From Auricularia sp. M13 (lineage: Eukaryota; Basidiomycota; Agaricomycetes; Auriculariales; Auriculariaceae), in NCBI GenBank assembly GCA_037042915.1, contig CM073196.1:1-64000 (forward strand): a stretch of 64,000 nucleotides of DNA, given 5' to 3'. The position numbers were made by a program, and so were the translations under genes. This document shows, in pieces, positions 1 to 51,724 of the stretch. The notes beneath the pieces were generated by a model. It was not told the DNA's origin. It ran no database searches and saw only the letters and a list, made by a program, of their open reading frames with translations. Numbering within the stretch: position 1 is the stretch's first letter; each line of letters opens with the position of its first letter.

Positions 1-1456
1 GAATTTTTCGTCGCAGATCAGACATGCGGCATCACGATCGCCGAGAAAGACAGGGCACGCTTCCAATCGGCTTAGCTGACGAGACCAAGTCGGAAGAACG
101 TATTCAGCCCCGGTTGAGTGTGACTTCCTTTCTCCTGGCCAAAGGTCGGGCGATCGGACTATCGGCAGAGTCCTTTTGCCTTCTGCCAGCCAAACACAGC
201 CGATCGGTGGGCAGACCGACAGGCTCCTGAGCCGCGCACCCCCAAACCCCCAAATCGAGGCCAGTCCGACAGCGTCGCGGGTTTCGGATTCTGCGATTTT
301 GTGCCTTTTCCCTGGATATGAGCCCCCAGTGTCCCGACATGGTGCGCAGAGAAGTTTCAGGCCTCGACGAGCGCCAGGGACAAGCGAGACCCAGTTCGGC
401 ATCTGCACAAGTCTCACGATCTGCCTTCCTGTGCACTTCAGCTCTCAGGCATATGGATGTCTCAGTCAAAACTCAAGATCGGCAGGGTTCGATCTTTTGG
501 CGCTTCCATCGGCAGTCGTCCAGCACGCCGGGAAGACTCCGGAAGGTAACCTCGGCAGGGACTCTGCGGCAGGGTCTCGCCCATTTCGGATTTTGTCGCG
601 TCGGCGGAAATTGCGCGTTGCCATGACGGCGCACTGCATCGCGAAGGTACCATCGCGTAGACCTCGGCGAGAGCTCCACGGAGATATGGGTGTCCGACGA
701 GTCGGGGTCCAACTGGGGTCGTAATTGGCTCTTGTCGGTCCCTCGTCCATCATTTGTCCATCATTTGTTGGTGATCGGTCGGCCTTCAGGTGTGGAATGT
801 GTTTGCACTTCGTCCCGCGGTTTCAGCTGCACTCCTCGTCGAGATACGGCTCCTTGTCGACGCCTTGTCCATCATTTGTCCATCATTTGTCGGGTATTTG
901 TTGGGCTCTCGTCCAGAATGCGTTCGCTCGTCGTCCGCGAGTTTAGCTGCTCCCCTCGCGGAGATACGGCTCCTTGTCCGGGTTTCGTGACATCGGCAGG
1001 TATTCCGGCTTGCTTTGGCAACGGACGGCCAGGTAGCGACACCATCGCGTAGCCACGATCGTCAGCCTTCCGGAGATATATGGGTGTCGGGGTGTCTGCT
1101 CTCATTTGGAGTCCCTGGAAGCTCTTGACGGTCTCTTGTCGGACAAATGATGGACAAATCACGGACAAGTGATGGACAAATGATGGGCAAGTGATGGACA
1201 AGGCCAAACGCGCTTTGCACGCAGAGTGCCGTGGGGCTCGCAAAATTCCGGCACCAACCCTCAATCGAACTGCCGGGCCCAACATAATTTTGCGAGTCAG
1301 CGCCAAGCCCCCTTCCTCGTTTCCGTGGCGCAGGAACCTTTTGGATCTCATACCATGAGATCCGGGCGACATATTAATATCTTCCGGGACCTCGCCCACT
1401 CGCAGCGGCGCGACCGGTGCACCGATTCGCACGGTTGAAACTGTTCCGGGGAGCTG
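1..1456. repeat. Copy 1 of the satellite, shortened and rearranged
   Basis: Counting units from the gaattttt motif, this copy is about 1456 bp, roughly 100 bp shorter than its neighbours. Most of the loss lies between about 400 and 480, where parts of the standard unit are missing and the remaining pieces are joined differently. It also carries scattered single-base differences that the interior copies lack, for example near 52, 147 and 722. It is either a real array edge or a poor consensus at a contig end. Confidence 0.8.
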
Positions 1457-2203
1457 GAATTTTCTCGTCGCAGATCAGACATGCGGCATCACGATCGCCG
1501 AGAAAGACGGGCACGCTTCCAATCGGCTTAGCTGACGAGACCAAGTCGGAAGAACGTATTCAGCCCCGGTTGAGTGTGACTTCCTTTCTCCTGGCCAAAG
1601 GTCGAGGACGATCGGACTATCGGCAGAGTCCTTTTGCCTTCTGCCAGCCAAACACAGCCGATCGGTGGGCAGACCGACAGGCTCCCTGAGCCGCGCACCC
1701 CCAAACCCCCAAATCGAGGCCAGTCCGACAGCGTCGGCGGGCTTCGGATTCTGCGATTTTGTGCCTTTTCCCCTGGATATGAGCCCCCAGTGTCCCGACA
1801 TGGTGCGCAGAGAAGTTTCAGGCCTCGACGAGCGCCAGGGACAAGCGAGACCCAGTTCGGCATCTGCAAATCCTGCGGCAGAGTGCGATCAGGTCTGGAC
1901 ACGGTCCCTGCAGATCCAAGGCTTCCTGTGCATCGGATCGGCGTCTTCGGCAGCTCTCAGGTCATATATGGATGTCTCTGACTCGGTCCCACAAGTCTCA
2001 CGATCTGCCTTCGGCACTTCACAGCGCAGTCAAAACTCGATCGGCAGGGTTCGTATTTTGGCGCCGGCCATCGGATGGTCGTCCAGCACGCCGGGAAGAC
2101 TCCGGAAGGTAACCTCGGCAGGGTCTGCGGTCGCCCATTTCGGATTTTGTCGCGTCGGCGGAAATTGCGCGTTGCCATGACGGCGCACTGCATCGCGAAG
2201 GGT

Positions 2204-2294
2204 ACCATCGCGTAGACCTCGGCGAGAGCTCCACGGAGATATATGGGTGTCCGACGATCGGGGTCCAACTGGGGTCGCAATTGGCTCTTGTCGG
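2204..2294. repeat. Paralogous block A1 inside the satellite unit
   Basis: This block matches block A2 (2599-2700) at an offset of 395-406 bp. Shared landmarks are accatcgcgtag (2204 and 2599), gagatatatgggtgtc (2236 and 2631) and ctcttgtcgg (2285 and 2691). Between the landmarks the two blocks have diverged, so the duplication predates amplification of the 1561-bp unit. The same pair is present in the other copies. Confidence 0.75.
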
Positions 2295-2300
2295 TCCCTC

Positions 2301-2447
2301 GTCCATCATTTGTCCATCATTTGTTGGTGATCGGTCGGCCTTCAGGTGTGGAATGTGTTTGCACTTCGTCCCGCGGTTTCAGCTGCACTCCTCGTCGAGA
2401 TACGGCTCCTTGTCGACGCCTTGTCCATCATTTGTCCATCATTTGTC
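2301..2447. repeat. 11-mer doublets (TCCATCATTTG) in the satellite unit
   Basis: Two short doublets of tccatcatttg lie at 2301-2324 and 2421-2447, about 120 bp apart. They are reverse complements of the 11-mer block at 2700-2760. Every copy I read carries them. Confidence 0.85.
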
Positions 2448-2535
2448 GGGTATTTGTTGGGCTCTCGTCCAGAATGCGTTCGCTCGTCGTCCCGCGAGTT
2501 TAGCTGCTCCCCTCGCGGAGATACGGCTCCTTGTC
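2367..2535. repeat. 48-bp direct duplication, 121 bp apart, in the satellite unit
   Basis: The stretch at 2367-2414, from cgtcccgcgg to gagatacggctccttgtc, recurs at 2488-2535 with a few mismatches. The final 18 bases are identical in both. Together with blocks A1 and A2 it shows that the unit was itself assembled from smaller repeats. Confidence 0.8.
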
Positions 2536-2598
2536 CGGGTTTCGTGACATCGGCAGGTATTCCGGCTTGCTTTGGCAACGGACGGCCGAGGTAGCGAC

Positions 2599-2700
2599 AC
2601 CATCGCGTAGCCACGATCGTCAGCCTTCCGGAGATATATGGGTGTCGGGGTGTCTGCTCTCATTTGGAGTCCCTGGAAGCTCTTGACGGTCTCTTGTCGG
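2599..2700. repeat. Paralogous block A2 inside the satellite unit
   Basis: This is the partner of A1 (2204-2294), in the same orientation and order of landmarks. It runs directly into the reversed 11-mer block, whereas A1 runs into the forward 11-mer doublet. The two blocks therefore end on the same motif in opposite orientation. Confidence 0.75.
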
Positions 2701-2760
2701 ACAAATGATGGACAAATCACGGACAAGTGATGGACAAATGATGGGCAAGTGATGGACAAG
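2700..2760. repeat. 11-bp minisatellite, 5.5 copies, inverted relative to the doublets
   Basis: The consensus is ACAAATGATGG, with variants ACAAATCACGG, ACAAGTGATGG and GCAAGTGATGG, arranged in perfect 11-bp phase. It is the reverse complement of the tccatcatttg doublets at 2301-2447, so each unit can in principle pair with itself over 16-17 bp stretches across 250-400 bp. The block is retained in all copies. Confidence 0.9.
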
Positions 2761-2900
2761 GCCAAACGCGCTTTGCACGCAGAGTGCCGTGGGGCTCGCA
2801 AAATTCCGGCACCAACCCTCAATCGAACTGCCGGGCCCAACATAATTTTGCGAGTCAGCGCCAAGCCCCCTTCCTCGTTTCCGTGGCGCAGGAACCTTTT

Positions 2901-2921
2901 GGATCTCATACCATGAGATCC
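2901..2921. repeat. Perfect hairpin, 9-bp arms and 3-base loop, in each satellite unit
   Basis: GGATCTCAT and ATGAGATCC are exact reverse complements separated by ACC. The element is present once per unit, about 8 bp before the AT palindrome. It is not followed by a T run, so it does not look like a bacterial-type terminator. A binding site or a fold-back is possible, but its function is unknown. Confidence 0.85.
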
Positions 2922-2928
2922 GGGCGAC

Positions 2929-2938
2929 ATATTAATAT
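2929..2938. repeat. 10-bp perfect palindrome ATATTAATAT in each satellite unit
   Basis: This is a self-complementary AT-only decamer in an otherwise GC-rich unit. The same palindrome at the right end of the array (51324-51332) is where the satellite sequence breaks off. Confidence 0.85.
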
Positions 2939-5900
2939 CTTCCGGGACCTCGGCCCACTCGCAGCGGCGCGACCGGTGCACCGATTCGCACGGTTGAAAC
3001 TGTTCCGGGGAGCTGGAATTTTTCTCGTCGCAGATCAGACATGCGGCATCACGATCGCCGAGAAAGACGGGCACGCTTCCAATCGGCTTAGCTGACGAGA
3101 CCAAGTCGGAAGAACGTATTCAGCCCCGGTTGAGTGTGACTTCCTTTCTCCTGGCCAAAGGTCGAGGACGATCGGACTATCGGCAGAGTCCTTTTGCCTT
3201 CTGCCAGCCAAACACAGCCGATCGGTGGGCAGACCGACAGGCTCCCTGAGCCGCGCACCCCCAAACCCCCAAATCGAGGCCAGTCCGACAGCGTCGGCGG
3301 GCTTCGGATTCTGCGATTTTGTGCCTTTTCCCCTGGATATGAGCCCCCAGTGTCCCGACATGGTGCGCAGAGAAGTTTCAGGCCTCGACGAGCGCCAGGG
3401 ACAAAGCGAGACCCAGTTCGGCATCTGCAAATCCTGCGGCAGAGTGCGATCAGGTCTGGACACGGTCCCTGCAGATCCAAGGCTTCCTGTGCATCGGATC
3501 GGCGTCTTCGGCAGCTCTCAGGTCATATATGGATGTCTCTGACTCGGTCCCACAAGTCTCACGATCTGCCTTCGGCACTTCACAGCGCAGTCAAAACTCG
3601 ATCGGCAGGGTTCGTATTTTGGCGCCGGCCATCGGATGGTCGTCCAGCACGCCGGGAAGACTCCGGAAGGTAACCTCGGCAGGGTCTGCGGTCGCCCATT
3701 TCGGATTTTGTCGCGTCGGCGGAAATTGCGCGTTGCCATGACGGCGCACTGCATCGCGAAGGGTACCATCGCGTAGACCTCGGCGAGAGCTCCACGGAGA
3801 TATATGGGTGTCCGACGATCGGGGTCCAACTGGGGTCGCAATTGGCTCTTGTCGGTCCCTCGTCCATCATTTGTCCATCATTTGTTGGTGATCGGTCGGC
3901 CTTCAGGTGTGGAATGTGTTTGCACTTCGTCCCGCGGTTTCAGCTGCACTCCTCGTCGAGATACGGCTCCTTGTCGACGCCTTGTCCATCATTTGTCCAT
4001 CATTTGTCGGGTATTTGTTGGGCTCTCGTCCAGAATGCGTTCGCTCGTCGTCCCGCGAGTTTAGCTGCTCCCCTCGCGGAGATACGGCTCCTTGTCCGGG
4101 TTTCGTGACATCGGCAGGTATTCCGGCTTGCTTTGGCAACGGACGGCCGAGGTAGCGACACCATCGCGTAGCCACGATCGTCAGCCTTCCGGAGATATAT
4201 GGGTGTCGGGGTGTCTGCTCTCATTTGGAGTCCCTGGAAGCTCTTGACGGTCTCTTGTCGGACAAATGATGGACAAATCACGGACAAGTGATGGACAAAT
4301 GATGGGCAAGTGATGGACAAGGCCAAAACGCGCTTTGCACGCAGAGTGCCGTGGGGCTCGCAAAATTCCGGCACCAACCCTCAATCGAACTGCCGGGCCC
4401 AACATAATTTTGCGAGTCAGCGCCAAGCCCCCCTTCCTCGTTTCCGTGGCGCAGGAACCTTTTGGATCTCATACCATGAGATCCGGGCGACATATTAATA
4501 TCTTCCGGGACCTCGGCCCACTCGCAGCGGCGCGACCGGTGCACCGATTCGCACGGTTGAAACTGTTCCGGGGAGCTGGAATTTTTCTCGTCGCAGATCA
4601 GACATGCGGCATCACGATCGCCGAGAAAGACGGGCACGCTTCCAATCGGCTTAGCTGACGAGACCAAGTCGGAAGAACGTATTCAGCCCCGGTTGAGTGT
4701 GACTTCCTTTCTCCTGGCCAAAGGTCGAGGACGATCGGACTATCGGCAGAGTCCTTTTGCCTTCTGCCAGCCAAACACAGCCGATCGGTGGGCAGACCGA
4801 CAGGCTCCCTGAGCCGCGCACCCCCAAACCCCCCAAATCGAGGCCAGTCCGACAGCGTCGGCGGGCTTCGGATTCTGCGATTTTGTGCCTTTTCCCCTGG
4901 ATATGAGCCCCCAGTGTCCCGACATGGTGCGCAGAGAAGTTTCAGGCCTCGACGAGCGCCAGGGACAAAGCGAGACCCAGTTCGGCATCTGCAAATCCTG
5001 CGGCAGAGTGCGATCAGGTCTGGACACGGTCCCTGCAGATCCAAGGCTTCCTGTGCATCGGATCGGCGTCTTCGGCAGCTCTCAGGTCATATATGGATGT
5101 CTCTGACTCGGTCCCACAAGTCTCACGATCTGCCTTCGGCACTTCACAGCGCAGTCAAAACTCGATCGGCAGGGTTCGTATTTTGGCGCCGGCCATCGGA
5201 TGGTCGTCCAGCACGCCGGGAAGACTCCGGAAGGTAACCTCGGCAGGGTCTGCGGTCGCCCATTTCGGATTTTGTCGCGTCGGCGGAAATTGCGCGTTGC
5301 CATGACGGCGCACTGCATCGCGAAGGGTACCATCGCGTAGACCTCGGCGAGAGCTCCACGGAGATATATGGGTGTCCGACGATCGGGGTCCAACTGGGGT
5401 CGCAATTGGCTCTTGTCGGTCCCTCGTCCATCATTTGTCCATCATTTGTTGGTGATCGGTCGGCCTTCAGGTGTGGAATGTGTTTGCACTTCGTCCCGCG
5501 GTTTCAGCTGCACTCCTCGTCGAGATACGGCTCCTTGTCGACGCCTTGTCCATCATTTGTCCATCATTTGTCGGGTATTTGTTGGGCTCTCGTCCAGAAT
5601 GCGTTCGCTCGTCGTCCCGCGAGTTTAGCTGCTCCCCTCGCGGAGATACGGCTCCTTGTCCGGGTTTCGTGACATCGGCAGGTATTCCGGCTTGCTTTGG
5701 CAACGGACGGCCGAGGTAGCGACACCATCGCGTAGCCACGATCGTCAGCCTTCCGGAGATATATGGGTGTCGGGGTGTCTGCTCTCATTTGGAGTCCCTG
5801 GAAGCTCTTGACGGTCTCTTGTCGGACAAATGATGGACAAATCACGGACAAGTGATGGACAAATGATGGGCAAGTGATGGACAAGGCCAAAACGCGCTTT

Positions 5901-8900
5901 GCACGCAGAGTGCCGTGGGGCTCGCAAAATTCCGGCACCAACCCTCAATCGAACTGCCGGGCCCAACATAATTTTGCGAGTCAGCGCCAAGCCCCCTTCC
6001 TCGTTTCCGTGGCGCAGGAACCTTTTGGATCTCATACCATGAGATCCGGGCGACATATTAATATCTTCCGGGACCTCGGCCCACTCGCAGCGGCGCGACC
6101 GGTGCACCGATTCGCACGGTTGAAACTGTTCCGGGGAGCTGGAATTTTTCTCGTCGCAGATCAGACATGCGGCATCACGATCGCCGAGAAAGACGGGCAC
6201 GCTTCCAATCGGCTTAGCTGACGAGACCAAGTCGGAAGAACGTATTCAGCCCCGGTTGAGTGTGACTTCCTTTCTCCTGGCCAAAGGTCGAGGACGATCG
6301 GACTATCGGCAGAGTCCTTTTGCCTTCTGCCAGCCAAACACAGCCGATCGGTGGGCAGACCGACAGGCTCCCTGAGCCGCGCACCCCCAAACCCCCAAAT
6401 CGAGGCCAGTCCGACAGCGTCGGCGGGCTTCGGATTCTGCGATTTTGTGCCTTTTCCCCTGGATATGAGCCCCCAGTGTCCCGACATGGTGCGCAGAGAA
6501 GTTTCAGGCCTCGACGAGCGCCAGGGACAAAGCGAGACCCAGTTCGGCATCTGCAAATCCTGCGGCAGAGTGCGATCAGGTCTGGACACGGTCCCTGCAG
6601 ATCCAAGGCTTCCTGTGCATCGGATCGGCGTCTTCGGCAGCTCTCAGGTCATATATGGATGTCTCTGACTCGGTCCCACAAGTCTCACGATCTGCCTTCG
6701 GCACTTCACAGCGCAGTCAAAACTCGATCGGCAGGGTTCGTATTTTGGCGCCGGCCATCGGATGGTCGTCCAGCACGCCGGGAAGACTCCGGAAGGTAAC
6801 CTCGGCAGGGTCTGCGGTCGCCCATTTCGGATTTTGTCGCGTCGGCGGAAATTGCGCGTTGCCATGACGGCGCACTGCATCGCGAAGGGTACCATCGCGT
6901 AGACCTCGGCGAGAGCTCCACGGAGATATATGGGTGTCCGACGATCGGGGTCCAACTGGGGTCGCAATTGGCTCTTGTCGGTCCCTCGTCCATCATTTGT
7001 CCATCATTTGTTGGTGATCGGTCGGCCTTCAGGTGTGGAATGTGTTTGCACTTCGTCCCGCGGTTTCAGCTGCACTCCTCGTCGAGATACGGCTCCTTGT
7101 CGACGCCTTGTCCATCATTTGTCCATCATTTGTCGGGTATTTGTTGGGCTCTCGTCCAGAATGCGTTCGCTCGTCGTCCCGCGAGTTTAGCTGCTCCCCT
7201 CGCGGAGATACGGCTCCTTGTCCGGGTTTCGTGACATCGGCAGGTATTCCGGCTTGCTTTGGCAACGGACGGCCGAGGTAGCGACACCATCGCGTAGCCA
7301 CGATCGTCAGCCTTCCGGAGATATATGGGTGTCGGGGTGTCTGCTCTCATTTGGAGTCCCTGGAAGCTCTTGACGGTCTCTTGTCGGACAAATGATGGAC
7401 AAATCACGGACAAGTGATGGACAAATGATGGGCAAGTGATGGACAAGGCCAAAACGCGCTTTGCACGCAGAGTGCCGTGGGGCTCGCAAAATTCCGGCAC
7501 CAACCCTCAATCGAACTGCCGGGCCCAACATAATTTTGCGAGTCAGCGCCAAGCCCCCTTCCTCGTTTCCGTGGCGCAGGAACCTTTTGGATCTCATACC
7601 ATGAGATCCGGGCGACATATTAATATCTTCCGGGACCTCGGCCCACTCGCAGCGGCGCGACCGGTGCACCGATTCGCACGGTTGAAACTGTTCCGGGGAG
7701 CTGGAATTTTTCTCGTCGCAGATCAGACATGCGGCATCACGATCGCCGAGAAAGACGGGCACGCTTCCAATCGGCTTAGCTGACGAGACCAAGTCGGAAG
7801 AACGTATTCAGCCCCGGTTGAGTGTGACTTCCTTTCTCCTGGCCAAAGGTCGAGGACGATCGGACTATCGGCAGAGTCCTTTGCCTTCTGCCAGCCAAAC
7901 ACAGCCGATCGGTGGGCAGACCGACAGGCTCCCTGAGCCGCGCACCCCCAAACCCCCAAATCGAGGCCAGTCCGACAGCGTCGGCGGGCTTCGGATTCTG
8001 CGATTTTGTGCCTTTTCCCCTGGATATGAGCCCCAGTGTCCCGACATGGTGCGCAGAGAAGTTTCAGGCCTCGACGAGCGCCAGGGACAAAGCGAGACCC
8101 AGTTCGGCATCTGCAAATCCTGCGGCAGAGTGCGATCAGGTCTGGACACGGTCCCTGCAGATCCAAGGCTTCCTGTGCATCGGATCGGCGTCTTCGGCAG
8201 CTCTCAGGTCATATATGGATGTCTCTGACTCGGTCCCACAAGTCTCACGATCTGCCTTCGGCACTTCACAGCGCAGTCAAAACTCGATCGGCAGGGTTCG
8301 TATTTTGGCGCCGGCCATCGGATGGTCGTCCAGCACGCCGGGAAGACTCCGGAAGGTAACCTCGGCAGGGTCTGCGGTCGCCCATTTCGGATTTTGTCGC
8401 GTCGGCGGAAATTGCGCGTTGCCATGACGGCGCACTGCATCGCGAAGGGTACCATCGCGTAGACCTCGGCGAGAGCTCCACGGAGATATATGGGTGTCCG
8501 ACGATCGGGGTCCAACTGGGGTCGCAATTGGCTCTTGTCGGTCCCTCGTCCATCATTTGTCCATCATTTGTTGGTGATCGGTCGGCCTTCAGGTGTGGAA
8601 TGTGTTTGCACTTCGTCCCGCGGTTTCAGCTGCACTCCTCGTCGAGATACGGCTCCTTGTCGACGCCTTGTCCATCATTTGTCCATCATTTGTCGGGTAT
8701 TTGTTGGGCTCTCGTCCAGAATGCGTTCGCTCGTCGTCCCGCGAGTTTAGCTGCTCCCCTCGCGGAGATACGGCTCCTTGTCCGGGTTTCGTGACATCGG
8801 CAGGTATTCCGGCTTGCTTTGGCAACGGACGGCCGAGGTAGCGACACCATCGCGTAGCCACGATCGTCAGCCTTCCGGAGATATATGGGTGTCGGGGTGT

Positions 8901-11900
8901 CTGCTCTCATTTGGAGTCCCTGGAAGCTCTTGACGGTCTCTTGTCGGACAAATGATGGACAAATCACGGACAAGTGATGGACAAATGATGGGCAAGTGAT
9001 GGACAAGGCCAAAACGCGCTTTGCACGCAGAGTGCCGTGGGGCTCGCAAAATTCCGGCACCAACCCTCAATCGAACTGCCGGGCCCAACATAATTTTGCG
9101 AGTCAGCGCCAAGCCCCCTTCCTCGTTTCCGTGGCGCAGGAACCTTTTGGATCTCATACCATGAGATCCGGGCGACATATTAATATCTTCCGGGACCTCG
9201 GCCCACTCGCAGCGGCGCGACCGGTGCACCGATTCGCACGGTTGAAACTGTTCCGGGGAGCTGGAATTTTTCTCGTCGCAGATCAGACATGCGGCATCAC
9301 GATCGCCGAGAAAGACGGGCACGCTTCCAATCGGCTTAGCTGACGAGACCAAGTCGGAAGAACGTATTCAGCCCCGGTTGAGTGTGACTTCCTTTCTCCT
9401 GGCCAAAGGTCGAGGACGATCGGACTATCGGCAGAGTCCTTTTGCCTTCTGCCAGCCAAACACAGCCGATCGGTGGGCAGACCGACAGGCTCCCTGAGCC
9501 GCGCACCCCCAAACCCCCCAAATCGAGGCCAGTCCGACAGCGTCGGCGGGCTTCGGATTCTGCGATTTTGTGCCTTTTCCCCTGGATATGAGCCCCCAGT
9601 GTCCCGACATGGTGCGCAGAGAAGTTTCAGGCCTCGACGAGCGCCAGGGACAAAGCGAGACCCAGTTCGGCATCTGCAAATCCTGCGGCAGAGTGCGATC
9701 AGGTCTGGACACGGTCCCTGCAGATCCAAGGCTTCCTGTGCATCGGATCGGCGTCTTCGGCAGCTCTCAGGTCATATATGGATGTCTCTGACTCGGTCCC
9801 ACAAGTCTCACGATCTGCCTTCGGCACTTCACAGCGCAGTCAAAACTCGATCGGCAGGGTTCGTATTTTGGCGCCGGCCATCGGATGGTCGTCCAGCACG
9901 CCGGGAAGACTCCGGAAGGTAACCTCGGCAGGGTCTGCGGTCGCCCATTTCGGATTTTGTCGCGTCGGCGGAAATTGCGCGTTGCCATGACGGCGCACTG
10001 CATCGCGAAGGGTACCATCGCGTAGACCTCGGCGAGAGCTCCACGGAGATATATGGGTGTCCGACGATCGGGGTCCAACTGGGGTCGCAATTGGCTCTTG
10101 TCGGTCCCTCGTCCATCATTTGTCCATCATTTGTTGGTGATCGGTCGGCCTTCAGGTGTGGAATGTGTTTGCACTTCGTCCCGCGGTTTCAGCTGCACTC
10201 CTCGTCGAGATACGGCTCCTTGTCGACGCCTTGTCCATCATTTGTCCATCATTTGTCGGGTATTTGTTGGGCTCTCGTCCAGAATGCGTTCGCTCGTCGT
10301 CCCGCGAGTTTAGCTGCTCCCCTCGCGGAGATACGGCTCCTTGTCCGGGTTTCGTGACATCGGCAGGTATTCCGGCTTGCTTTGGCAACGGACGGCCGAG
10401 GTAGCGACACCATCGCGTAGCCACGATCGTCAGCCTTCCGGAGATATATGGGTGTCGGGGTGTCTGCTCTCATTTGGAGTCCCTGGAAGCTCTTGACGGT
10501 CTCTTGTCGGACAAATGATGGACAAATCACGGACAAGTGATGGACAAATGATGGGCAAGTGATGGACAAGGCCAAAACGCGCTTTGCACGCAGAGTGCCG
10601 TGGGGCTCGCAAAATTCCGGCACCAACCCTCAATCGAACTGCCGGGCCCAACATAATTTTGCGAGTCAGCGCCAAGCCCCCCTTCCTCGTTTCCGTGGCG
10701 CAGGAACCTTTTGGATCTCATACCATGAGATCCGGGCGACATATTAATATCTTCCGGGACCTCGGCCCACTCGCAGCGGCGCGACCGGTGCACCGATTCG
10801 CACGGTTGAAACTGTTCCGGGGAGCTGGAATTTTTCTCGTCGCAGATCAGACATGCGGCATCACGATCGCCGAGAAAGACGGGCACGCTTCCAATCGGCT
10901 TAGCTGACGAGACCAAGTCGGAAGAACGTATTCAGCCCCGGTTGAGTGTGACTTCCTTTCTCCTGGCCAAAGGTCGAGGACGATCGGACTATCGGCAGAG
11001 TCCTTTTGCCTTCTGCCAGCCAAACACAGCCCGATCGGTGGGCAGACCGACAGGCTCCCTGAGCCGCGCACCCCAAACCCCCAAATCGAGGCCAGTCCGA
11101 CAGCGTCGGCGGGCTTCGGATTCTGCGATTTTGTGCCTTTTCCCTGGATATGAGCCCCCAGTGTCCCGACATGGTGCGCAGAGAAGTTTCAGGCCTCGAC
11201 GAGCGCCAGGGACAAAGCGAGACCCAGTTCGGCATCTGCAAATCCTGCGGCAGAGTGCGATCAGGTCTGGACACGGTCCCTGCAGATCCAAGGCTTCCTG
11301 TGCATCGGATCGGCGTCTTCGGCAGCTCTCAGGTCATATATGGATGTCTCTGACTCGGTCCCACAAGTCTCACGATCTGCCTTCGGCACTTCACAGCGCA
11401 GTCAAAACTCGATCGGCAGGGTTCGTATTTTGGCGCCGGCCATCGGATGGTCGTCCAGCACGCCGGGAAGACTCCGGAAGGTAACCTCGGCAGGGTCTGC
11501 GGTCGCCCATTTCGGATTTTGTCGCGTCGGCGGAAATTGCGCGTTGCCATGACGGCGCACTGCATCGCGAAGGGTACCATCGCGTAGACCTCGGCGAGAG
11601 CTCCACGGAGATATATGGGTGTCCGACGATCGGGGTCCAACTGGGGTCGCAATTGGCTCTTGTCGGTCCCTCGTCCATCATTTGTCCATCATTTGTTGGT
11701 GATCGGTCGGCCTTCAGGTGTGGAATGTGTTTGCACTTCGTCCCGCGGTTTCAGCTGCACTCCTCGTCGAGATACGGCTCCTTGTCGACGCCTTGTCCAT
11801 CATTTGTCCATCATTTGTCGGGTATTTGTTGGGCTCTCGTCCAGAATGCGTTCGCTCGTCGTCCCGCGAGTTTAGCTGCTCCCCTCGCGGAGATACGGCT

Positions 11901-38900: not shown

Positions 38901-41900
38901 CGGTTGAAACTGTTCCGGGGAGCTGGAATTTTTCTCGTCGCAGATCAGACATGCGGCATCACGATCGCCGAGAAAGACGGGCACGCTTCCAATCGGCTTA
39001 GCTGACGAGACCAAGTCGGAAGAACGTATTCAGCCCCGGTTGAGTGTGACTTCCTTTCTCCTGGCCAAAGGTCGAGGACGATCGGACTATCGGCAGAGTC
39101 CTTTTGCCTTCTGCCAGCCAAACACAGCCGATCGGTGGGCAGACCGACAGGCTCCCTGAGCCGCGCACCCCCAAACCCCCAAATCGAGGCCAGTCCGACA
39201 GCGTCGGCGGGCTTCGGATTCTGCGATTTTGTGCCTTTTCCCCTGGATATGAGCCCCCAGTGTCCCGACATGGTGCGCAGAGAAGTTTCAGGCCTCGACG
39301 AGCGCCAGGGACAAAGCGAGACCCAGTTCGGCATCTGCAAATCCTGCGGCAGAGTGCGATCAGGTCTGGACACGGTCCCTGCAGATCCAAGGCTTCCTGT
39401 GCATCGGATCGGCGTCTTCGGCAGCTCTCAGGTCATATATGGATGTCTCTGACTCGGTCCCACAAGTCTCACGATCTGCCTTCGGCACTTCACAGCGCAG
39501 TCAAAACTCGATCGGCAGGGTTCGTATTTTGGCGCCGGCCATCGGATGGTCGTCCAGCACGCCGGGAAGACTCCGGAAGGTAACCTCGGCAGGGTCTGCG
39601 GTCGCCCATTTCGGATTTTGTCGCGTCGGCGGAAATTGCGCGTTGCCATGACGGCGCACTGCATCGCGAAGGGTACCATCGCGTAGACCTCGGCGAGAGC
39701 TCCACGGAGATATATGGGTGTCCGACGATCGGGGTCCAACTGGGGTCGCAATTGGCTCTTGTCGGTCCCTCGTCCATCATTTGTCCATCATTTGTTGGTG
39801 ATCGGTCGGCCTTCAGGTGTGGAATGTGTTTGCACTTCGTCCCGCGGTTTCAGCTGCACTCCTCGTCGAGATACGGCTCCTTGTCGACGCCTTGTCCATC
39901 ATTTGTCCATCATTTGTCGGGTATTTGTTGGGCTCTCGTCCAGAATGCGTTCGCTCGTCGTCCCGCGAGTTTAGCTGCTCCCTCGCGGAGATACGGCTCC
40001 TTGTCCGGGTTTCGTGACATCGGCAGGTATTCCGGCTTGCTTTGGCAACGGACGGCCGAGGTAGCGACACCATCGCGTAGCCACGATCGTCAGCCTTCCG
40101 GAGATATATGGGTGTCGGGGTGTCTGCTCTCATTTGGAGTCCCTGGAAGCTCTTGACGGTCTCTTGTCGGACAAATGATGGACAAATCACGGACAAGTGA
40201 TGGACAAATGATGGGCAAGTGATGGACAAGGCCAAAACGCGCTTTGCACGCAGAGTGCCGTGGGGCTCGCAAAATTCCGGCACCAACCCTCAATCGAACT
40301 GCCGGGCCCAACATAATTTTGCGAGTCAGCGCCAAGCCCCCTTCCTCGTTTCCGTGGCGCAGGAACCTTTTGGATCTCATACCATGAGATCCGGGCGACA
40401 TATTAATATCTTCCGGGACCTCGGCCCACTCGCAGCGGCGCGACCGGTGCACCGATTCGCACGGTTGAAACTGTTCCGGGAGCTGGAATTTTTCTCGTCG
40501 CAGATCAGACATGCGGCATCACGATCGCCGAGAAAGACGGGCACGCTTCCAATCGGCTTAGCTGACGAGACCAAGTCGGAAGAACGTATTCAGCCCCGGT
40601 TGAGTGTGACTTCCTTTCTCCTGGCCAAAGGTCGAGGACGATCGGACTATCGGCAGAGTCCTTTTGCCTTCTGCCAGCCAAACACAGCCGATCGGTGGGC
40701 AGACCGACAGGCTCCCTGAGCCGCGCACCCCAAACCCCCAAATCGAGGCCAGTCCGACAGCGTCGGCGGGCTTCGGATTCTGCGATTTTGTGCCTTTTCC
40801 CCTGGATATGAGCCCCCAGTGTCCCGACATGGTGCGCAGAGAAGTTTCAGGCCTCGACGAGCGCCAGGGACAAAGCGAGACCCAGTTCGGCATCTGCAAA
40901 TCCTGCGGCAGAGTGCGATCAGGTCTGGACACGGTCCCTGCAGATCCAAGGCTTCCTGTGCATCGGATCGGCGTCTTCGGCAGCTCTCAGGTCATATATG
41001 GATGTCTCTGACTCGGTCCCACAAGTCTCACGATCTGCCTTCGGCACTTCACAGCGCAGTCAAAACTCGATCGGCAGGGTTCGTATTTTGGCGCCGGCCA
41101 TCGGATGGTCGTCCAGCACGCCGGGAAGACTCCGGAAGGTAACCTCGGCAGGGTCTGCGGTCGCCCATTTCGGATTTTGTCGCGTCGGCGGAAATTGCGC
41201 GTTGCCATGACGGCGCACTGCATCGCGAAGGGTACCATCGCGTAGACCTCGGCGAGAGCTCCACGGAGATATATGGGTGTCCGACGATCGGGGTCCAACT
41301 GGGGTCGCAATTGGCTCTTGTCGGTCCCTCGTCCATCATTTGTCCATCATTTGTTGGTGATCGGTCGGCCTTCAGGTGTGGAATGTGTTTGCACTTCGTC
41401 CCGCGGTTTCAGCTGCACTCCTCGTCGAGATACGGCTCCTTGTCGACGCCTTGTCCATCATTTGTCCATCATTTGTCGGGTATTTGTTGGGCTCTCGTCC
41501 AGAATGCGTTCGTTCGCTCGTCGTCCCGGAGTTTAGCTGCTCCCCTCGCGGAGATACGGCTCCTTGTCCGGGTTTCGTGACATCGGCAGGTATTCCGGCT
41601 TGCTTTGGCAACGGACGGCCGAGGTAGCGACACCATCGCGTAGCCACGATCGTCAGCCTTCCGGAGATATATGGGTGTCGGGGTGTCTGCTCTCATTTGG
41701 AGTCCCTGGAAGCTCTTGACGGTCTCTTGTCGGACAAATGATGGACAAATCACGGACAAGTGATGGACAAATGATGGGCAAGTGATGGACAAGGCCAAAC
41801 GCGCTTTGCACGCAGAGTGCCGTGGGGCTCGCAAAATTCCGGCACCAACCCTCAATCGAACTGCCGGGCCCAACATAATTTTGCGAGTCAGCGCCAAGCC

Positions 41901-44900
41901 CCCTTCCTCGTTTCCGTGGCGCAGGAACCTTTTGGATCTCATACCATGAGATCCGGGCGACATATTAATATCTTCCGGGACCTCGGCCCACTCGCAGCGG
42001 CGCGACCGGTGCACCGATTCGCACGGTTGAAACTGTTCCGGGAGCTGGAATTTTTCTCGTCGCAGATCAGACATGCGGCATCACGATCGCCGAGAAAGAC
42101 GGGCACGCTTCCAATCGGCTTAGCTGACGAGACCAAGTCGGAAGAACGTATTCAGCCCCGGTTGAGTGTGACTTCCTTTCTCCTGGCCAAAGGTCGAGGA
42201 CGATCGGACTATCGGCAGAGTCCTTTTGCCTTCTGCCAGCCAAACACAGCCGATCGGTGGGCAGACCGACAGGCTCCCTGAGCCGCGCACCCCCAAACCC
42301 CCAAATCGAGGCCAGTCCGACAGCGGGCGGGCTTCGGATTCTGCGATTTTGTGCCTTTTCCCTGGATATGAGCCCCCAGTGTCCCGACATGGTGCGCAGA
42401 GAAGTTTCAGGCCTCGACGAGCGCCAGGGACAAAGCGAGACCCAGTTCGGCATCTGCAAATCCTGCGGCAGAGTGCGATCAGGTCTGGACACGGTCCCTG
42501 CAGATCCAAGGCTTCCTGTGCATCGGATCGGCGTCTTCGGCAGCTCTCAGGTCATATATGGATGTCTCTGACTCGGTCCCACAAGTCTCACGATCTGCCT
42601 TCGGCACTTCACAGCGCAGTCAAAACTCGATCGGCAGGGTTCGTATTTTGGCGCCGGCCATCGGATGGTCGTCCAGCACGCCGGGAAGACTCCGGAAGGT
42701 AACCTCGGCAGGGTCTGCGGTCGCCCATTTCGGATTTTGTCGCGTCGGCGGAAATTGCGCGTTGCCATGACGGCGCACTGCATCGCGAAGGGTACCATCG
42801 CGTAGACCTCGGCGAGAGCTCCACGGAGATATATGGGTGTCCGACGATCGGGGTCCAACTGGGGTCGCAATTGGCTCTTGTCGGTCCCTCGTCCATCATT
42901 TGTCCATCATTTGTTGGTGATCGGTCGGCCTTCAGGTGTGGAATGTGTTTGCACTTCGTCCCGCGGTTTCAGCTGCACTCCTCGTCGAGATACGGCTCCT
43001 TGTCGACGCCTTGTCCATCATTTGTCCATCATTTGTCGGGTATTTGTTGGGCTCTCGTCCAGAATGCGTTCGCTCGTCGTCCCGCGAGTTTAGCTGCTCC
43101 CCTCGCGGAGATACGGCTCCTTGTCCGGGTTTCGTGACATCGGCAGGTATTCCGGCTTGCTTTGGCAACGGACGGCCGAGGTAGCGACACCATCGCGTAG
43201 CCACGATCGTCAGCCTTCCGGAGATATATGGGTGTCGGGGTGTCTGCTCTCATTTGGAGTCCCTGGAAGCTCTTGACGGTCTCTTGTCGGACAAATGATG
43301 GACAAATCACGGACAAGTGATGGACAAATGATGGGCAAGTGATGGACAAGGCCAAAACGCGCTTTGCACGCAGAGTGCCGTGGGGCTCGCAAAATTCCGG
43401 CACCAACCCTCAATCGAACTGCCGGGCCCAACATAATTTTGCGAGTCAGCGCCAAGCCCCCTTCCTCGTTTCCGTGGCGCAGGAACCTTTTGGATCTCAT
43501 ACCATGAGATCCGGGCGACATATTAATATCTTCCGGGACCTCGGCCCACTCGCAGCGGCGCGACCGGTGCACCGATTCGCACGGTTGAAACTGTTCCGGG
43601 AGCTGGAATTTTTCTCGTCGCAGATCAGACATGCGGCATCACGATCGCCGAGAAAGACGGGCACGCTTCCAATCGGCTTAGCTGACGAGACCAAGTCGGA
43701 AGAACGTATTCAGCCCCGGTTGAGTGTGACTTCCTTTCTCCTGGCCAAAGGTCGAGGACGATCGGACTATCGGCAGAGTCCTTTTGCCTTCTGCCAGCCA
43801 AACACAGCCGATCGGTGGGCAGACCGACAGGCTCCCTGAGCCGCGCACCCCCAAACCCCCAAATCGAGGCCAGTCCGACAGCGTCGGCGGGCTTGGATTC
43901 TGCGATTTTGTGCCTTTTCCCCTGGATATGAGCCCCCAGTGTCCCGACATGGTGCGCAGAGAAGTTTCAGGCCTCGACGAGCGCCAGGGACAAGCGAGAC
44001 CCAGTTCGGCATCTGCAAATCCTGCGGCGGCAGAGTGCGATCAGGTCTGGACACGGTCCCTGCAGATCCAAGGCTTCCTGTGCATCGGATCGGCGTCTTC
44101 GGCAGCTCTCAGGTCATATATGGATGTCTCTGACTCGGTCCCACAAGTCTCACGATCTGCCTTCGGCACTTCACAGCGCAGTCAAAACTCGATCGGCAGG
44201 GTTCGTATTTTGGCGCCGGCCATCGGATGGTCGTCCAGCACGCCGGGAAGACTCCGGAAGGTAACCTCGGCAGGGTCTGCGGTCGCCCATTTCGGATTTT
44301 GTCGCGTCGGCGGAAATTGCGCGTTGCCATGACGGCGCACTGCATCGCGAAGGGTACCATCGCGTAGACCTCGGCGAGAGCTCCACGGAGATATATGGGT
44401 GTCCGACGATCGGGGTCCAACTGGGGTCGCAATTGGCTCTTGTCGGTCCCTCGTCCATCATTTGTCCATCATTTGTTGGTGATCGGTCGGCCTTCAGGTG
44501 TGGAATGTGTTTGCACTTCGTCCCGCGGTTTCAGCTGCACTCCTCGTCGAGATACGGCTCCTTGTCGACGCCTTGTCCATCATTTGTCCATCATTTGTCG
44601 GGTATTTGTTGGGCTCTCGTCCAGAATGCGTTCGCTCGTCGTCCCGCGAGTTTAGCTGCTCCCCTCGCGGAGATACGGCTCCTTGTCCGGGTTTCGTGAC
44701 ATCGGCAGGTATTCCGGCTTGCTTTGGCAACGGACGGCCGAGGTAGCGACACCATCGCGTAGCCACGATCGTCAGCCTTCCGGAGATATATGGGTGTCGG
44801 GGTGTCTGCTCTCATTTGGAGTCCCTGGAAGCTCTTGACGGTCTCTTGTCGGACAAATGATGGACAAATCACGGACAAGTGATGGACAAATGATGGGCAA

Positions 44901-47900
44901 GTGATGGACAAGGCCAAAACGCGCTTTGCACGCAGAGTGCCGTGGGGCTCGCAAAATTCCGGCACCAACCCTCAATCGAACTGCCGGGCCCAACATAATT
45001 TTGCGAGTCAGCGCCAAGCCCCCCTTCCTCGTTTCCGTGGCGCAGGAACCTTTTGGATCTCATACCATGAGATCCGGGCGACATATTAATATCTTCCGGG
45101 ACCTCGGCCCACTCGCAGCGGCGCGACCGGTGCACCGATTCGCACGGTTGAAACTGTTCCGGGGAGCTGGAATTTTTCTCGTCGCAGATCAGACATGCGG
45201 CATCACGATCGCCGAGAAAGACGGGCACGCTTCCAATCGGCTTAGCTGACGAGACCAAGTCGGAAGAACGTATTCAGCCCCGGTTGAGTGTGACTTCCTT
45301 TCTCCTGGCCAAAGGTCGAGGACGATCGGACTATCGGCAGAGTCCTTTTGCCTTCTGCCAGCCAAACACAGCCGATCGGTGGGCAGACCGACAGGCTCCC
45401 TGAGCGCGCACCCCCAAACCCCCAAATCGAGGCCAGTCCGACAGCGTCGGCGGGCTTCGGATTCTGCGATTTTGTGCCTTTTCCCTGGATATGAGCCCCC
45501 AGTGTCCCGACATGGTGCGCAGAGAAGTTTCAGGCCTCGACGAGCGCCAGGGACAAAGCGAGACCCAGTTCGGCATCTGCAAATCCTGCGGCAGAGTGCG
45601 ATCAGGTCTGGACACGGTCCCTGCAGATCCAAGGCTTCCTGTGCATCGGATCGGCGTCTTCGGCAGCTCTCAGGTCATATATGGATGTCTCTGACTCGGT
45701 CCCACAAGTCTCACGATCTGCCTTCGGCACTTCACAGCGCAGTCAAAACTCGATCGGCAGGGTTCGTATTTTGGCGCCGGCCATCGGATGGTCGTCCAGC
45801 ACGCCGGGAAGACTCCGGAAGGTAACCTCGGCAGGGTCTGCGGTCGCCCATTTCGGATTTTGTCGCGTCGGCGGAAATTGCGCGTTGCCATGACGGCGCA
45901 CTGCATCGCGAAGGGTACCATCGCGTAGACCTCGGCGAGAGCTCCACGGAGATATATGGGTGTCCGACGATCGGGGTCCAACTGGGGTCGCAATTGGCTC
46001 TTGTCGGTCCCTCGTCCATCATTTGTCCATCATTTGTTGGTGATCGGTCGGCCTTCAGGTGTGGAATGTGTTTGCACTTCGTCCCGCGGTTTCAGCTGCA
46101 CTCCTCGTCGAGATACGGCTCCTTGTCGACGCCTTGTCCATCATTTGTCCATCATTTGTCGGGTATTTGTTGGGCTCTCGTCCAGAATGCGTTCGCTCGT
46201 CGTCCCGCGAGTTTAGCTGCTCCCCTCGCGGAGATACGGCTCCTTGTCCGGGTTTCGTGACATCGGCAGGTATTCCGGCTTGCTTTGGCAACGGACGGCC
46301 GAGGTAGCGACACCATCGCGTAGCCACGATCGTCAGCCTTCCGGAGATATATGGGTGTCGGGGTGTCTGCTCTCATTTGGAGTCCCTGGAAGCTCTTGAC
46401 GGTCTCTTGTCGGACAAATGATGGACAAATCACGGACAAGTGATGGACAAATGATGGGCAAGTGATGGACAAGGCCAAAACGCGCTTTGCACGCAGAGTG
46501 CCGTGGGGCTCGCAAAATTCCGGCACCAACCCTCAATCGAACTGCCGGGCCCAACATAATTTTGCGAGTCAGCGCCAAGCCCCCCTTCCTCGTTTCCGTG
46601 GCGCAGGAACCTTTTGGATCTCATACCATGAGATCCGGGCGACATATTAATATCTTCCGGGACCTCGGCCCACTCGCAGCGGCGCGACCGGTGCACCGAT
46701 TCGCACGGTTGAAACTGTTCCGGGAGCTGGAATTTTTCTCGTCGCAGATCAGACATGCGGCATCACGATCGCCGAGAAAGACGGGCACGCTTCCAATCGG
46801 CTTAGCTGACGAGACCAAGTCGGAAGAACGTATTCAGCCCCGGTTGAGTGTGACTTCCTTTCTCCTGGCCAAAGGTCGAGGACGATCGGACTATCGGCAG
46901 AGTCCTTTTGCCTTCTGCCAGCCAAACACAGCCGATCGGTGGGCAGACCGACAGGCTCCCTGAGCCGCGCACCCCCAAACCCCCAAATCGAGGCCAGTCC
47001 GACAGCGTCGGCGGGCTTTGGATTCTGCGATTTTGTGCCTTTTCCCCTGGATATGAGCCCCCAGTGTCCCGACATGGTGCGCAGAGAAGTTTCAGGCCTC
47101 GACGAGCGCCAGGGACAAAGCGAGACCCAGTTCGGCATCTGCAAATCCTGCGGCAGAGTGCGATCAGGTCTGGACACGGTCCCTGCAGATCCAAGGCTTC
47201 CTGTGCATCGGATCGGCGTCTTCGGCAGCTCTCAGGTCATATATGGATGTCTCTGACTCGGTCCCACAAGTCTCACGATCTGCCTTCGGCACTTCACAGC
47301 GCAGTCAAAACTCGATCGGCAGGGTTCGTATTTTGGCGCCGGCCATCGGATGGTCGTCCAGCACGCCGGGAAGACTCCGGAAGGTAACCTCGGCAGGGTC
47401 TGCGGTCGCCCATTTCGGATTTTGTCGCGTCGGCGGAAATTGCGCGTTGCCATGACGGCGCACTGCATCGCGAAGGGTACCATCGCGTAGACCTCGGCGA
47501 GAGCTCCACGGAGATATATGGGTGTCCGACGATCGGGGTCCAACTGGGGTCGCAATTGGCTCTTGTCGGTCCCTCGTCCATCATTTGTCCATCATTTGTT
47601 GGTGATCGGTCGGCCTTCAGGTGTGGAATGTGTTTGCACTTCGTCCCGCGGTTTCAGCTGCACTCCTCGTCGAGATACGGCTCCTTGTCGACGCCTTGTC
47701 CATCATTTGTCCATCATTTGTCGGGTATTTGTTGGGCTCTCGTCCAGAATGCGTTCGCTCGTCGTCCCGCGAGTTTAGCTGCTCCCTCGCGGAGATACGG
47801 CTCCTTGTCCGGGTTTCGTGACATCGGCAGGTATTCCGGCTTGCTTTGGCAACGGACGGCCGAGGTAGCGACACCATCGCGTAGCCACGATCGTCAGCCT

Positions 47901-49850
47901 TCCGGAGATATATGGGTGTCGGGGTGTCTGCTCTCATTTGGAGTCCCTGGAAGCTCTTGACGGTCTCTTGTCGGACAAATGATGGACAAATCACGGACAA
48001 GTGATGGACAAATGATGGGCAAGTGATGGACAAGGCCAAAACGCGCTTTGCACGCAGAGTGCCGTGGGGCTCGCAAAATTCCGGCACCAACCCTCAATCG
48101 AACTGCCGGGCCCAACATAATTTTGCGAGTCAGCGCCAAGCCCCCTTCCTCGTTTCCGTGGCGCAGGAACCTTTTGGATCTCATACCATGAGATCCGGGC
48201 GACATATTAATATCTTCCGGGACCTCGGCCCACTCGCAGCGGCGCGACCGGTGCACCGATTCGCACGGTTGAAACTGTTCCGGGGAGCTGGAATTTTTCT
48301 CGTCGCAGATCAGACATGCGGCATCACGATCGCCGAGAAAGACGGGCACGCTTCCAATCGGCTTAGCTGACGAGACCAAGTCGGAAGAACGTATTCAGCC
48401 CCGGTTGAGTGTGACTTCCTTTCTCCTGGCCAAAGGTCGAGGACGATCGGACTATCGGCAGAGTCCTTTTGCCTTCTGCCAGCCAAACACAGCCGATCGG
48501 TGGGCAGACCGACAGGCTCCCTGAGCCGCGCACCCCCAAACCCCCAAATCGAGGCCAGTCCGACAGCGTCGGCGGGCTTTGGATTCTGCGATTTTGTGCC
48601 TTTTCCCTGGATATGAGCCCCCAGTGTCCCGACATGGTGCGCAGAGAAGTTTCAGGCCTCGACGAGCGCCAGGGACAAAGCGAGACCCAGTTCGGCATCT
48701 GCAAATCCTGCGGCAGAGTGCGATCAGGTCTGGACACGGTCCCTGCAGATCCAAGGCTTCCTGTGCATCGGATCGGCGTCTTCGGCAGCTCTCAGGTCAT
48801 ATATGGATGTCTCTGACTCGGTCCCACAAGTCTCACGATCTGCCTTCGGCACTTCACAGCGCAGTCAAAACTCGATCGGCAGGGTTCGTATTTTGGCGCC
48901 GGCCATCGGATGGTCGTCCAGCACGCCGGGAAGACTCCGGAAGGTAACCTCGGCAGGGTCTGCGGTCGCCCATTTCGGATTTTGTCGCGTCGGCGGAAAT
49001 TGCGCGTTGCCATGACGGCGCGCTGCATCGCGAAGGGTACCATCGCGTAGACCTCGGCGAGAGCTCCACGGAGATATATGGGTGTCCGACGATCGGGGTC
49101 CAACTGGGGTCGCAATTGGCTCTTGTCGGTCCCTCGTCCATCATTTGTCCATCATTTGTTGGTGATCGGTCGGCCTTCAGGTGTGGAATGTGTTTGCACT
49201 TCGTCCCGCGGTTTCAGCTGCACTCCTCGTCGAGATACGGCTCCTTGTCGACGCCTTGTCCATCATTTGTCCATCATTTGTCGGGTATTTGTTGGGCTCT
49301 CGTCCAGAATGCGTTCGCTCGTCGTCCCGCGAGTTTAGCTGCTCCCCTCGCGGAGATACGGCTCCTTGTCCGGGTTTCGTGACATCGGCAGGTATTCCGG
49401 CTTGCTTTGGCAACGGACGGCCGAGGTAGCGACACCATCGCGTAGCCACGATCGTCAGCCTTCCGGAGATATATGGGTGTCGGGGTGTCTGCTCTCATTT
49501 GGAGTCCCTGGAAGCTCTTGACGGTCTCTTGTCGGACAAATGATGGACAAATCACGGACAAGTGATGGACAAATGATGGGCAAGTGATGGACAAGGCCAA
49601 ACGCGCTTTGCACGCAGAGTGCCGTGGGGCTCGCAAAATTCCGGCACCAACCCTCAATCGAACTGCCGGGCCCAACATAATTTTGCGAGTCAGCGCCAAG
49701 CCCCCTTCCTCGTTTCCGTGGCGCAGGAACCTTTTGGATCTCATACCATGAGATCCGGGCGACATATTAATATCTTCCGGGACCTCGGCCCACTCGCAGC
49801 GGCGCGACCGGTGCACCGATTCGCACGGTTGAAACTGTTCCGGGGAGCTG

Positions 49851-51332
49851 GAATTTTTCTCGTCGCAGATCAGACATGCGGCATCACGATCGCCGAGAAA
49901 GACGGGCACGCTTCCAATCGGCTTAGCTGACGAGACCAAGTCGGAAGAACGTATTCAGCCCCGGTTGAGTGTGACTTCCTTTCTCCTGGCCAAAGGTCGA
50001 GGACGATCGGACTATCGGCAGAGTCCTTTTGCCTTCTGCCAGCCAAACACAGCCGATCGGTGGGCAGACCGACAGGCTCCCTGAGCCGCGCACCCCAAAC
50101 CCCCAAATCGAGGCCAGTCCGACAGCGTCGCGGGCTTCGGATTCTGCGATTTTGTGCCTTTTCCCCTGGATATGAGCCCCCAGTGTCCCGACATGGTGCG
50201 CAGAGAAGTTTCAGGCCTCGACGAGCGCCAGGGACAAGCGAGACCCAGTTCGGCATCTGCAAATCCTGCGGCAGAGTGCGATCAGGTCTGGACACGGTCC
50301 CTGCAGATCCAAGGCTTCCTGTGCATCGGATCGGCGTCTTCGGCAGCTCTCAGGTCATATATGGATGTCTCTGACTCGGTCCCACAAGTCTCACGATCTG
50401 CCTTCGGCACTTCACAGCGCAGTCAAAACTCGATCGGCAGGGTTCGTATTTTGGCGCCGGCCATCGGATGGTCGTCCAGCACGCCGGGAAGACTCCGGAA
50501 GGTAACCTCGGCAGGGTCTGCGGTCGCCCATTTCGGATTTTGTCGCGTCGGCGGAAATTGCGCGTTGCCATGACGGCGCACTGCATCGCGAAGGGTACCA
50601 TCGCGTAGACCTCGGCGAGAGCTCCACGGAGATATATGGGTGTCCGACGATCGGGGTCCAACTGGGGTCGCAATTGGCTCTTGTCGGTCCCTCGTCCATC
50701 ATTTGTCCATCATTTGTTGGTGATCGGTCGGCCTTCAGGTGTGGAATGTGTTTGCACTTCGTCCCGCGGTTTCAGCTGCACTCCTCGTCGAGATACGGCT
50801 CCTTGTCGACGCCTTGTCCATCATTTGTCCATCATTTGTCGGGTATTTGTTGGGCTCTCGTCCAGAATGCGTTCGCTCGTCGTCCCGCGAGTTTAGCTGC
50901 TCCCCTCGCGGAGATACGGCTCCTTGTCCGGGTTTCGTGACATCGGCAGGTATTCCGGCTTGCTTTGGCAACGGACGGCCGAGGTAGCGACACCATCGCG
51001 TAGCCACGATCGTCAGCCTTCCGGAGATATATGGGTGTCGGGGTGTCTGCTCTCATTTGGAGTCCCTGGAAGCTCTTGACGGTCTCTTGTCGGACAAATG
51101 ATGGACAAATCACGGACAAGTGATGGACAAATGATGGGCAAGTGATGGACAAGGCCAAAACGCGCTTTGCACGCAGAGTGCCGTGGGGCTCGCAAAATTC
51201 CGGCACCAACCCTCAATCGAACTGCCAGGCCCAACATAATTTTGCGAGTCAGCGCCAAGCCCCCCTTCCTCGTTTCCGTGGCGCAGGAACCTTTTGGATC
51301 TCATACCATGAGATCCGGGCGACATATTAATA
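49851..51332. repeat. Last satellite copy (copy 33), truncated by ~78 bp
   Basis: This copy follows the unit consensus until gacatattaata, ending at 51332, and then switches abruptly to the 74-bp minisatellite. Only about 78 bp of the unit are missing. The break falls inside the AT palindrome. This copy also has a private substitution at 51227 (G to A). Confidence 0.9.
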
Positions 51333-51695: not shown

Positions 51696-51724
51696 CAGAC
51701 AATGGCCAGCAGGACAGTGCAAGG

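Follow-up and report, generated by a model that had tools for sequence, protein, structure and literature searches.

A subtelomeric megasatellite of Auricularia sp. M13 with a fixed 3′ terminus and a GG joint, possibly derived from an element added to chromosome ends

We report the analysis of a 64,000-nucleotide stretch of DNA (hereafter, the window) from the basidiomycete Auricularia sp. M13, comprising the first 64 kb of scaffold C4 (contig CM073196.1, 4.55 Mb) in an assembly of 52.1 Mb and 14 scaffolds (GCA_037042915.1). Most of the window is occupied by a megasatellite of 33 head-to-tail units, here designated type A, followed inward by a second repeat-containing element and by a transposon fragment (Table 1). 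The megasatellite and its relatives elsewhere in the assembly end at one precise nucleotide, next to a GG that belongs to the DNA they abut, and near scaffold ends they point almost uniformly toward the chromosome body. The reading we favour, with a confidence that falls just short of even, treats the unit as an element that is non-coding and non-autonomous and that became attached to eroded or broken ends of chromosomes, probably through reverse transcription, before being amplified.

An initial annotation of this sequence had described a 51-kb homogeneous tandem array of 33 copies of a ~1561-bp unit, ending at position 51332 and possessing a rich internal layout, and all of these statements hold. 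The hairpin GGATCTCATACCATGAGATCC has 33 matches in the window, spaced 1558–1565 bp apart, and the unit interior contains 11-mer arrays in both directions, a nested 121-bp duplication, the hairpin and an AT palindrome, ATATTAATAT, found 32 times in the window. Copies 2–33 carry 0–8 differences each from the consensus; 38 of their 1593 alignment columns are variable, nearly all through insertions or deletions, with 5 substitutions from the consensus in all. The partial copy 1 shows 239 differences, so many that the scaffold edge appears to be poorly polished, and because the scaffold begins inside the array, copy number and array length are lower bounds. As far as sequence can tell, the array is genuine.

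The annotation had further considered the unit to be distinct from ribosomal DNA (rDNA) and devoid of recognizable genes, and we reach the same view. Rfam yielded no match in window positions 47500–64000, which cover more than two units, and no tRNA was found in the window, ruling out an rDNA, tRNA or Rfam origin of the unit; none of the 10 unit open reading frames (ORFs) tested contains a Pfam domain above cut-off, which rules out a coding unit at the Pfam level. Decay resembling repeat-induced point mutation was also rejected, since differences between the C4-left and C5-right units lack a transition bias (27 transitions, 33 transversions) and CpG is not depleted. A non-coding RNA produced from the unit is a possible candidate, with which the hairpin is compatible. 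The motifs CCATCA/TGATGG, which may constitute a candidate protein-binding site, are present in 8 copies per A unit, 10 per type C unit and 6 per type B unit (both described below), versus 2 in the 12-kb flank (52001–64000).

Other copies in the genome were located with short patterns (hairpin, subtype and tail), supplemented by BLAST of fetched scaffold ends. The 21-base hairpin has 164 matches genome-wide (43 on the forward and 121 on the reverse strand), and a 26-base subtype pattern has 86, at C3 right, C4 left and right, C5 right, C7 left and right, C13 left and inside C2; BLAST adds C9 right, C10 right and a short piece at C11 right. The family thus lies within the last 500 bases of 9 of the 28 scaffold ends (with 190 bp only at C11 right), 3 ends terminate in TTAGG/CCTAA (C5 left, C2 right and C4 right) and 16 show neither feature. 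At C4 right the order is chromosome, arrays, other elements and telomere (read without C4:4534701-4541999). Mapping across the assembly supports the subtelomeric placement that the initial annotation had offered as one option, with arrays at scaffold ends, inward polarity and one array followed by a telomere. An assembly artefact or a centromeric array is most improbable: the scaffold does open within the array, at a noisy first unit, but the family recurs at nine scaffold ends in end-specific variants, and the C4-right array lies between other sequence and the telomere. No observation made here speaks for a centromeric position. On C2, a mid-scaffold gap of 100 N (C2:2592338-2592437; L004:2339-2438) has oppositely oriented satellite copies on either side, the second array starting at the gap; C2 therefore joins, rightly or wrongly, two former ends into one scaffold and may represent two chromosomes. 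The same scaffold holds a 132-bp minisatellite of 22 copies (L005:2663-5579; C2:2609.7-2612.6k), which contains the unit's TTGTCCATCAT 11-mer and lies upstream of an A-type tail.

Comparison of one unit per array resolves the family into variants. Units from C4 left, C3 right and C2 are 99.4–99.7% identical, those from C5 right, the outer C4-right array and C7 left are 98.5–98.9% identical, and the two groups share 95.4–96.3% identity. Type C (the inner C4-right array, 1578 bp) is 83–85% identical to type-A units, and type B (C7 right, C10 right and C13 left; 1150–1153 bp) about 80%, sharing only the first ~900 bases. Since arrays are homogeneous within and distinct between groups, they seem to have been copied locally and, on occasion, to have moved between ends.

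The inner edges of arrays and the truncated copies end at the same nucleotide, where the hairpin is followed by the tail GGGCGACATANTAA[T/G]A and then by the GG of unrelated or older DNA. Among the non-tandem tail edges in the window and in loci L001-L040, which were fetched without regard to GG, GG comes next in 22 of 22, with 21 distinct flanks. Families with different bodies and different hairpins terminate in this same tail, and the outer edges that were read are not fixed, starting at unit position 934 on C1 and at 1373 on C2. A genome-wide scan with GGCGACATANTAAKANNV, a pattern that leaves the two joint bases free and requires the third base not to be T, returned 26 sites, 25 of them with GG and the remaining one interior, against a single match for the reversed control. 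The 92 tandem joints read TC in 59 cases, comprising every joint to a type-A start, TG in 18 and GG in 15. As type-A units carry TC at this place, the GG derives from the target, and the occurrence of TC, in place of the GG of the edges, at each of the 59 type-A joints suggests that array units were copied from one another rather than newly attached.

These edges bear on two further explanations. An ordinary subtelomeric satellite, homogenised by unequal exchange and inheriting a shared edge through subtelomere duplication, would fit the 98.5–99.7% similarity within groups of single units from different ends; we nevertheless regard it as improbable, given that the 22 edges have 21 distinct flanks and that inheritance of one edge does not explain why different bodies and hairpins end in the same tail. 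The satellite reading of the initial annotation accordingly stands as regards subtelomeric location, but misses the precise, mobile-element-like 3′ end, the unrelated flanks, the sister families and the layered history of the ends. Equally doubtful is a rolling-circle transposon, similar to Helitrons or Helentrons, whose tandem products would form the satellite. A terminal 3′ hairpin, tandem arrays and type-A units that start with TC after the tail are all reminiscent of such elements. Helitrons, however, have a 3′ CTRR end and insert between A and T, whereas the unit lacks a CTRR end and its flank begins with GG instead of T; types B and C do not retain TC, the orientation of the copies follows the chromosome ends and 5′ ends vary.

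The origin of the GG was also examined in native, tail-free copies of the flanks. The set comprised 59 boundaries with 54 distinct flanks, from which 15 boundaries (13 flanks) on viral contigs were dropped, leaving 41; a viral origin was set aside, the 15 viral-contig matches to the 17-place tail pattern being taken as chance (their flanks were not found among other loci, and the hairpin was not sought there). Native copies were found for 20 of the 41 distinct flanks, and in all 20 some have GG at the joint (about 24 of 84 copies for L052, 21 of 26 for L002), extended to AGG in 14; by comparison, 7.7–8.7% of unit positions follow GG and 1.1–1.6% follow AGG. The window joint itself falls inside a 74-bp repeat with the native form CAGAGG/GCAGTTG (slash at the joint). 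Because the edges were pre-selected for GG, this test establishes no more than the target origin of GG, and the rule itself rests on the GGCGACATANTAAKANNV scan and on the unselected edges of L001-L040 and the window.

The hairpin preceding the tail retains its fold across families. Its stem is GGATCTCAT/ATGAGATCC in A, GGATTGAT or GGCTTGAT/ATCAAGCC in B, GTCCTGAT/ATCAGGAT in both C and E, and TTTCTTTGAT/ATCAAAGAAA in D. In their commonest forms, these four distinct stems make 31 of 32 standard pairs over eight inner pairs, five of which show two to four pair types, a level reached by 2 of 20,000 column shuffles. Over 13 hairpin forms, 100 of 104 pairs are standard, these being 13 of 21 forms after leaving out shifted or outside-stem differences, a loop variant, a deletion, a hairpin-less form and a blank. 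Folded as single strands, A, B, C and D do better than shuffled sequences (z −3.9 to −2.7). The pairing constitutes support rather than proof, because we set the register by eye from the loop, with few stems to compare.

Among tail sites less than 100 kb from a scaffold end, 55 of 57, over 12 ends, point inward (12 of 13 when counted by cluster, many of the 57 sites being tandem type-B joints), and only 10 of 67 tail sites lie farther in than 100 kb, five of these being on C2, at most 165 kb from the gap. Older elements below the edges are often cut at GG and truncated at their 5′ side, so that type-A sequence follows joints such as CAGG/CCTCG, CAGG/GTTCG and TTGG/GCTCTC, and two 47-bp steps are stacked at C7:33.4 kb. 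The missing 5′ part of the older copy at L041 was not found outside the newer copy within the 9.5 kb examined. Chromosome ends in this genome record a layered history of additions.

Attachment from an RNA template would account for the fixed position of the 3′ terminus, the inward polarity and the loss of 5′ sequence. Under the reading that we favour, the tail would be the 3′ end of such a template (...UUAA(U/G)A), with the hairpin bound by a reverse transcriptase (RT), and the 3′-OH of a worn end, where the complementary strand reads ...CC or ...CCT, would prime synthesis. Later erosion would trim the 5′ side, and a single anchored copy could then expand, through recombination or rolling-circle copying, until a homogeneous array had formed. 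The main rival, which we rate as somewhat unlikely, is end capture at the DNA level: the hairpin and tail would mark a break or nick site, and an uncapped end would be joined to it by microhomology or break-induced replication, without reverse transcription. GG or AGG at the joints would suit microhomology, the D copies at C2, C7 and C9 share long upstream DNA and could be duplicated chromosome termini, and homogeneous arrays are what break-induced or rolling-circle copying would give. Microhomology repair, however, may start anywhere and is not expected to fix the start to one nucleotide in 22 of 22 edges, and the pairing kept in differing stems suggests a fold recognised in single-stranded form. 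Single-nucleotide precision and paired stems are thus the reasons for which we prefer RNA-templated attachment over DNA capture.

A number of observations weigh against this preference, two of which emerge from comparison with known telomeric retroelements. HeT-A has poly(A) at its 3′ joint, and in the Drosophila telomeric retrotransposons HeT-A, TART and TAHRE the 3′ end faces inward and the 5′ side is lost by erosion. These elements form arrays at chromosome ends, HeT-A has no RT of its own, and insertion takes place at the 3′-OH of a DNA end, the endonuclease being dispensable (PMC4700185). The unit resembles HeT-A, TART and TAHRE in forming chromosome-end arrays with the 3′ end toward the chromosome body, but it departs from HeT-A in that the tail GGGCGACATANTAAKA is followed by GG, so that a structured 3′ hairpin and a GG joint stand in place of poly(A). 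No Gag ORF was recognised in the A units tested; in contrast to Drosophila and its telomeric elements, this genome has a TERT-like sequence and TTAGG ends. MoTeR1 and MoTeR2 of Magnaporthe oryzae (PMC7367193) are head-to-tail chromosome-end elements whose copies are separated by telomere tracts; MoTeR2 (~1.7 kb) is non-autonomous and shares its ends with MoTeR1, and D-loop or rolling-circle copying is invoked to explain uniform arrays. FoTeR of Fusarium oxysporum also resides at chromosome ends, its 3′ ends being followed by several TAACCC (PMC12857005). The unit shares its location with both, its head-to-tail arrangement and a similar proposed mode of array growth with the MoTeRs, and its presumed non-autonomy with MoTeR2, but its tails never directly precede telomere repeats (0 of 114 tail ends, 92 tandem and 22 edges; in the L030 flank, TTAACCTAACCC begins 12 bases on), and no RT partner was found among the best 150 of 348 RVT_1 candidates. 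Both poly(A) and telomere-tract joints having been sought and found absent, we do not file the unit under HeT-A or under MoTeR/FoTeR.

The remaining contrary points concern the joint, the fold and the coding partner. The edge at L051 reads GA instead of GG, the genome-wide pattern leaves out edges with T as third base, two tail sites, both at C5 left, point outward, and no intact single copy with its 5′ start beside foreign DNA was recognised. The commonest type-B hairpin form (26 copies) breaks one pair, the fully paired form being rarer (2 copies), and three further forms of the 13 break one pair each; family E folds only weakly better than shuffles (z −1.7), and the fold predicted for type C is a different hairpin. 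When the RVT_1 candidates considered above were compared by eye with 67 tail sites, none lay within 15 kb upstream of a tail. In two places a decayed Gypsy-like pol lies upstream of a D tail, the single candidate for a coding partner to have emerged. On C7 (C7:9233-21444), between a C tail and a D tail and on the same strand, broken frames match RNase H (PF17919, PF17917), Integrase_H2C2 (PF17921) and rve (PF00665), three of six frames having no match; a second copy (C2:77564-78264) is 99% identical over 700 bases, and the rest of the 25 matches reach at most 76%. The 3′ flanks of the D tails differ from each other, and the decayed pol may represent either an autonomous relative or a Gypsy element present by chance in such an end.

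A TERT-like sequence is represented at C10:1566422-1566771 by two PF12009 matches that exceed the cut-off, both containing a single in-frame TGA. A more far-reaching proposal, which we deem unlikely, is that the families are structured non-coding RNAs, with at least four stems, copied in trans by an RT, possibly telomerase, onto uncapped ends at CC(T) as a back-up for telomeres, with arrays as a by-product.

Subtelomeric satellites and telomere-associated repeats likewise form homogeneous tandem arrays near telomeres at many chromosome ends; the unit differs from them by its fixed 3′ terminus, its joint rule and its conserved fold. Within a partial coverage of the literature, no basidiomycete telomeric retroposon or comparable satellite was apparent by title or abstract among the matches listed. 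The fungal telomeric retrotransposons MoTeR and FoTeR lie in telomere repeats and this family does not. Given its conserved 3′ fold, GG rule and layered history, such a non-coding family would allow the healing and erosion of ends and the birth of satellites to be tested within a single genome, and it suggests a route by which a megasatellite can begin from a mobile element.

The DNA to which the array is anchored appears to be an end-attaching element in its own right, truncated at its 5′ side and ending in telomere C-strand repeats (Table 1). Four copies of this element, named here for its 74-bp repeats and read with four different flanks, were found, in the window, at C1:1081-1083.6k, at C5 right (L036) and near 936.5k on C6 (L047). 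Endonuclease-deficient Penelope-like elements, such as Athena and Coprina, become joined to chromosome ends through a 3′ junction made of C-strand telomere repeats. A junction of this kind and differing flanks are features that the 74-bp element shares with them, and both differ from the satellite, whose tail is not telomeric. In the window, the 74-bp element would have joined the chromosome first and worn back, after which the A element would have joined at its GG and amplified.

Table 1. Coordinates of features in the window (first 64 kb of scaffold C4)
Feature	Position	Strand	Remarks
Array of 33 head-to-tail type-A units	1..51332	+	first unit partial; 5′ toward scaffold end, 3′ inward
Innermost (last) unit	49773..51332	+	1560 bp; array's anchor to the chromosome
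Nested 121-bp duplication, last unit	50676..50928	+	with TTGTCCATCAT 11-mers
Inverted 11/22-mer array, last unit	51091..51152	+	ATGATGGACAA type
Terminal hairpin	51296..51316	+	GGATCTCAT-ACC-ATGAGATCC; fold kept across tail families despite other stem sequences
Conserved tail	51318..51332	+	GGCGACATATTAATA; fixed 3′ end of the element
Target's GG at the joint	51333..51334	+	native flank copies read CAGAGG/GCAGTTG
Putative second end-attaching element, 5′-truncated	51333..51983	+	3′ tail CTCTATAA(CCTAA)n of telomere C-strand repeats
74-bp repeats of second element	51361-51694		
28-bp repeats of second element	51835-51932		
TAACC x6 in tail of second element	51954-51983		
Gypsy-type polyprotein fragment	62549..64000	-	rve, SH3_Tf2-1, chromodomain; flank, outside array

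The telomere repeat of this assembly is a 5-base unit, (CCTAA)n/(TTAGG)n, seen at C5:1-290 (L011) and at the right ends of C2 (L022) and C4 (L023), with two CCCTAA units at the inner border of the C5-left tract; (TTAGGG)4 has no match genome-wide. A TTAGG repeat is characteristic of arthropods, and its presence in a fungus would be out of the ordinary. Two basidiomycetes have TTAGGGG and TTAGGG telomeres (PMC9503964 and PMC8865532). A 20-base CCTAA pattern has 422 matches genome-wide, overlapping within runs, and many of the places among the matches listed are interior and in both orientations, some being interrupted arrays (C1:2341246-2341339, C1:9013727-9013815); these interstitial telomere repeats are perhaps the tails of end-attaching elements.

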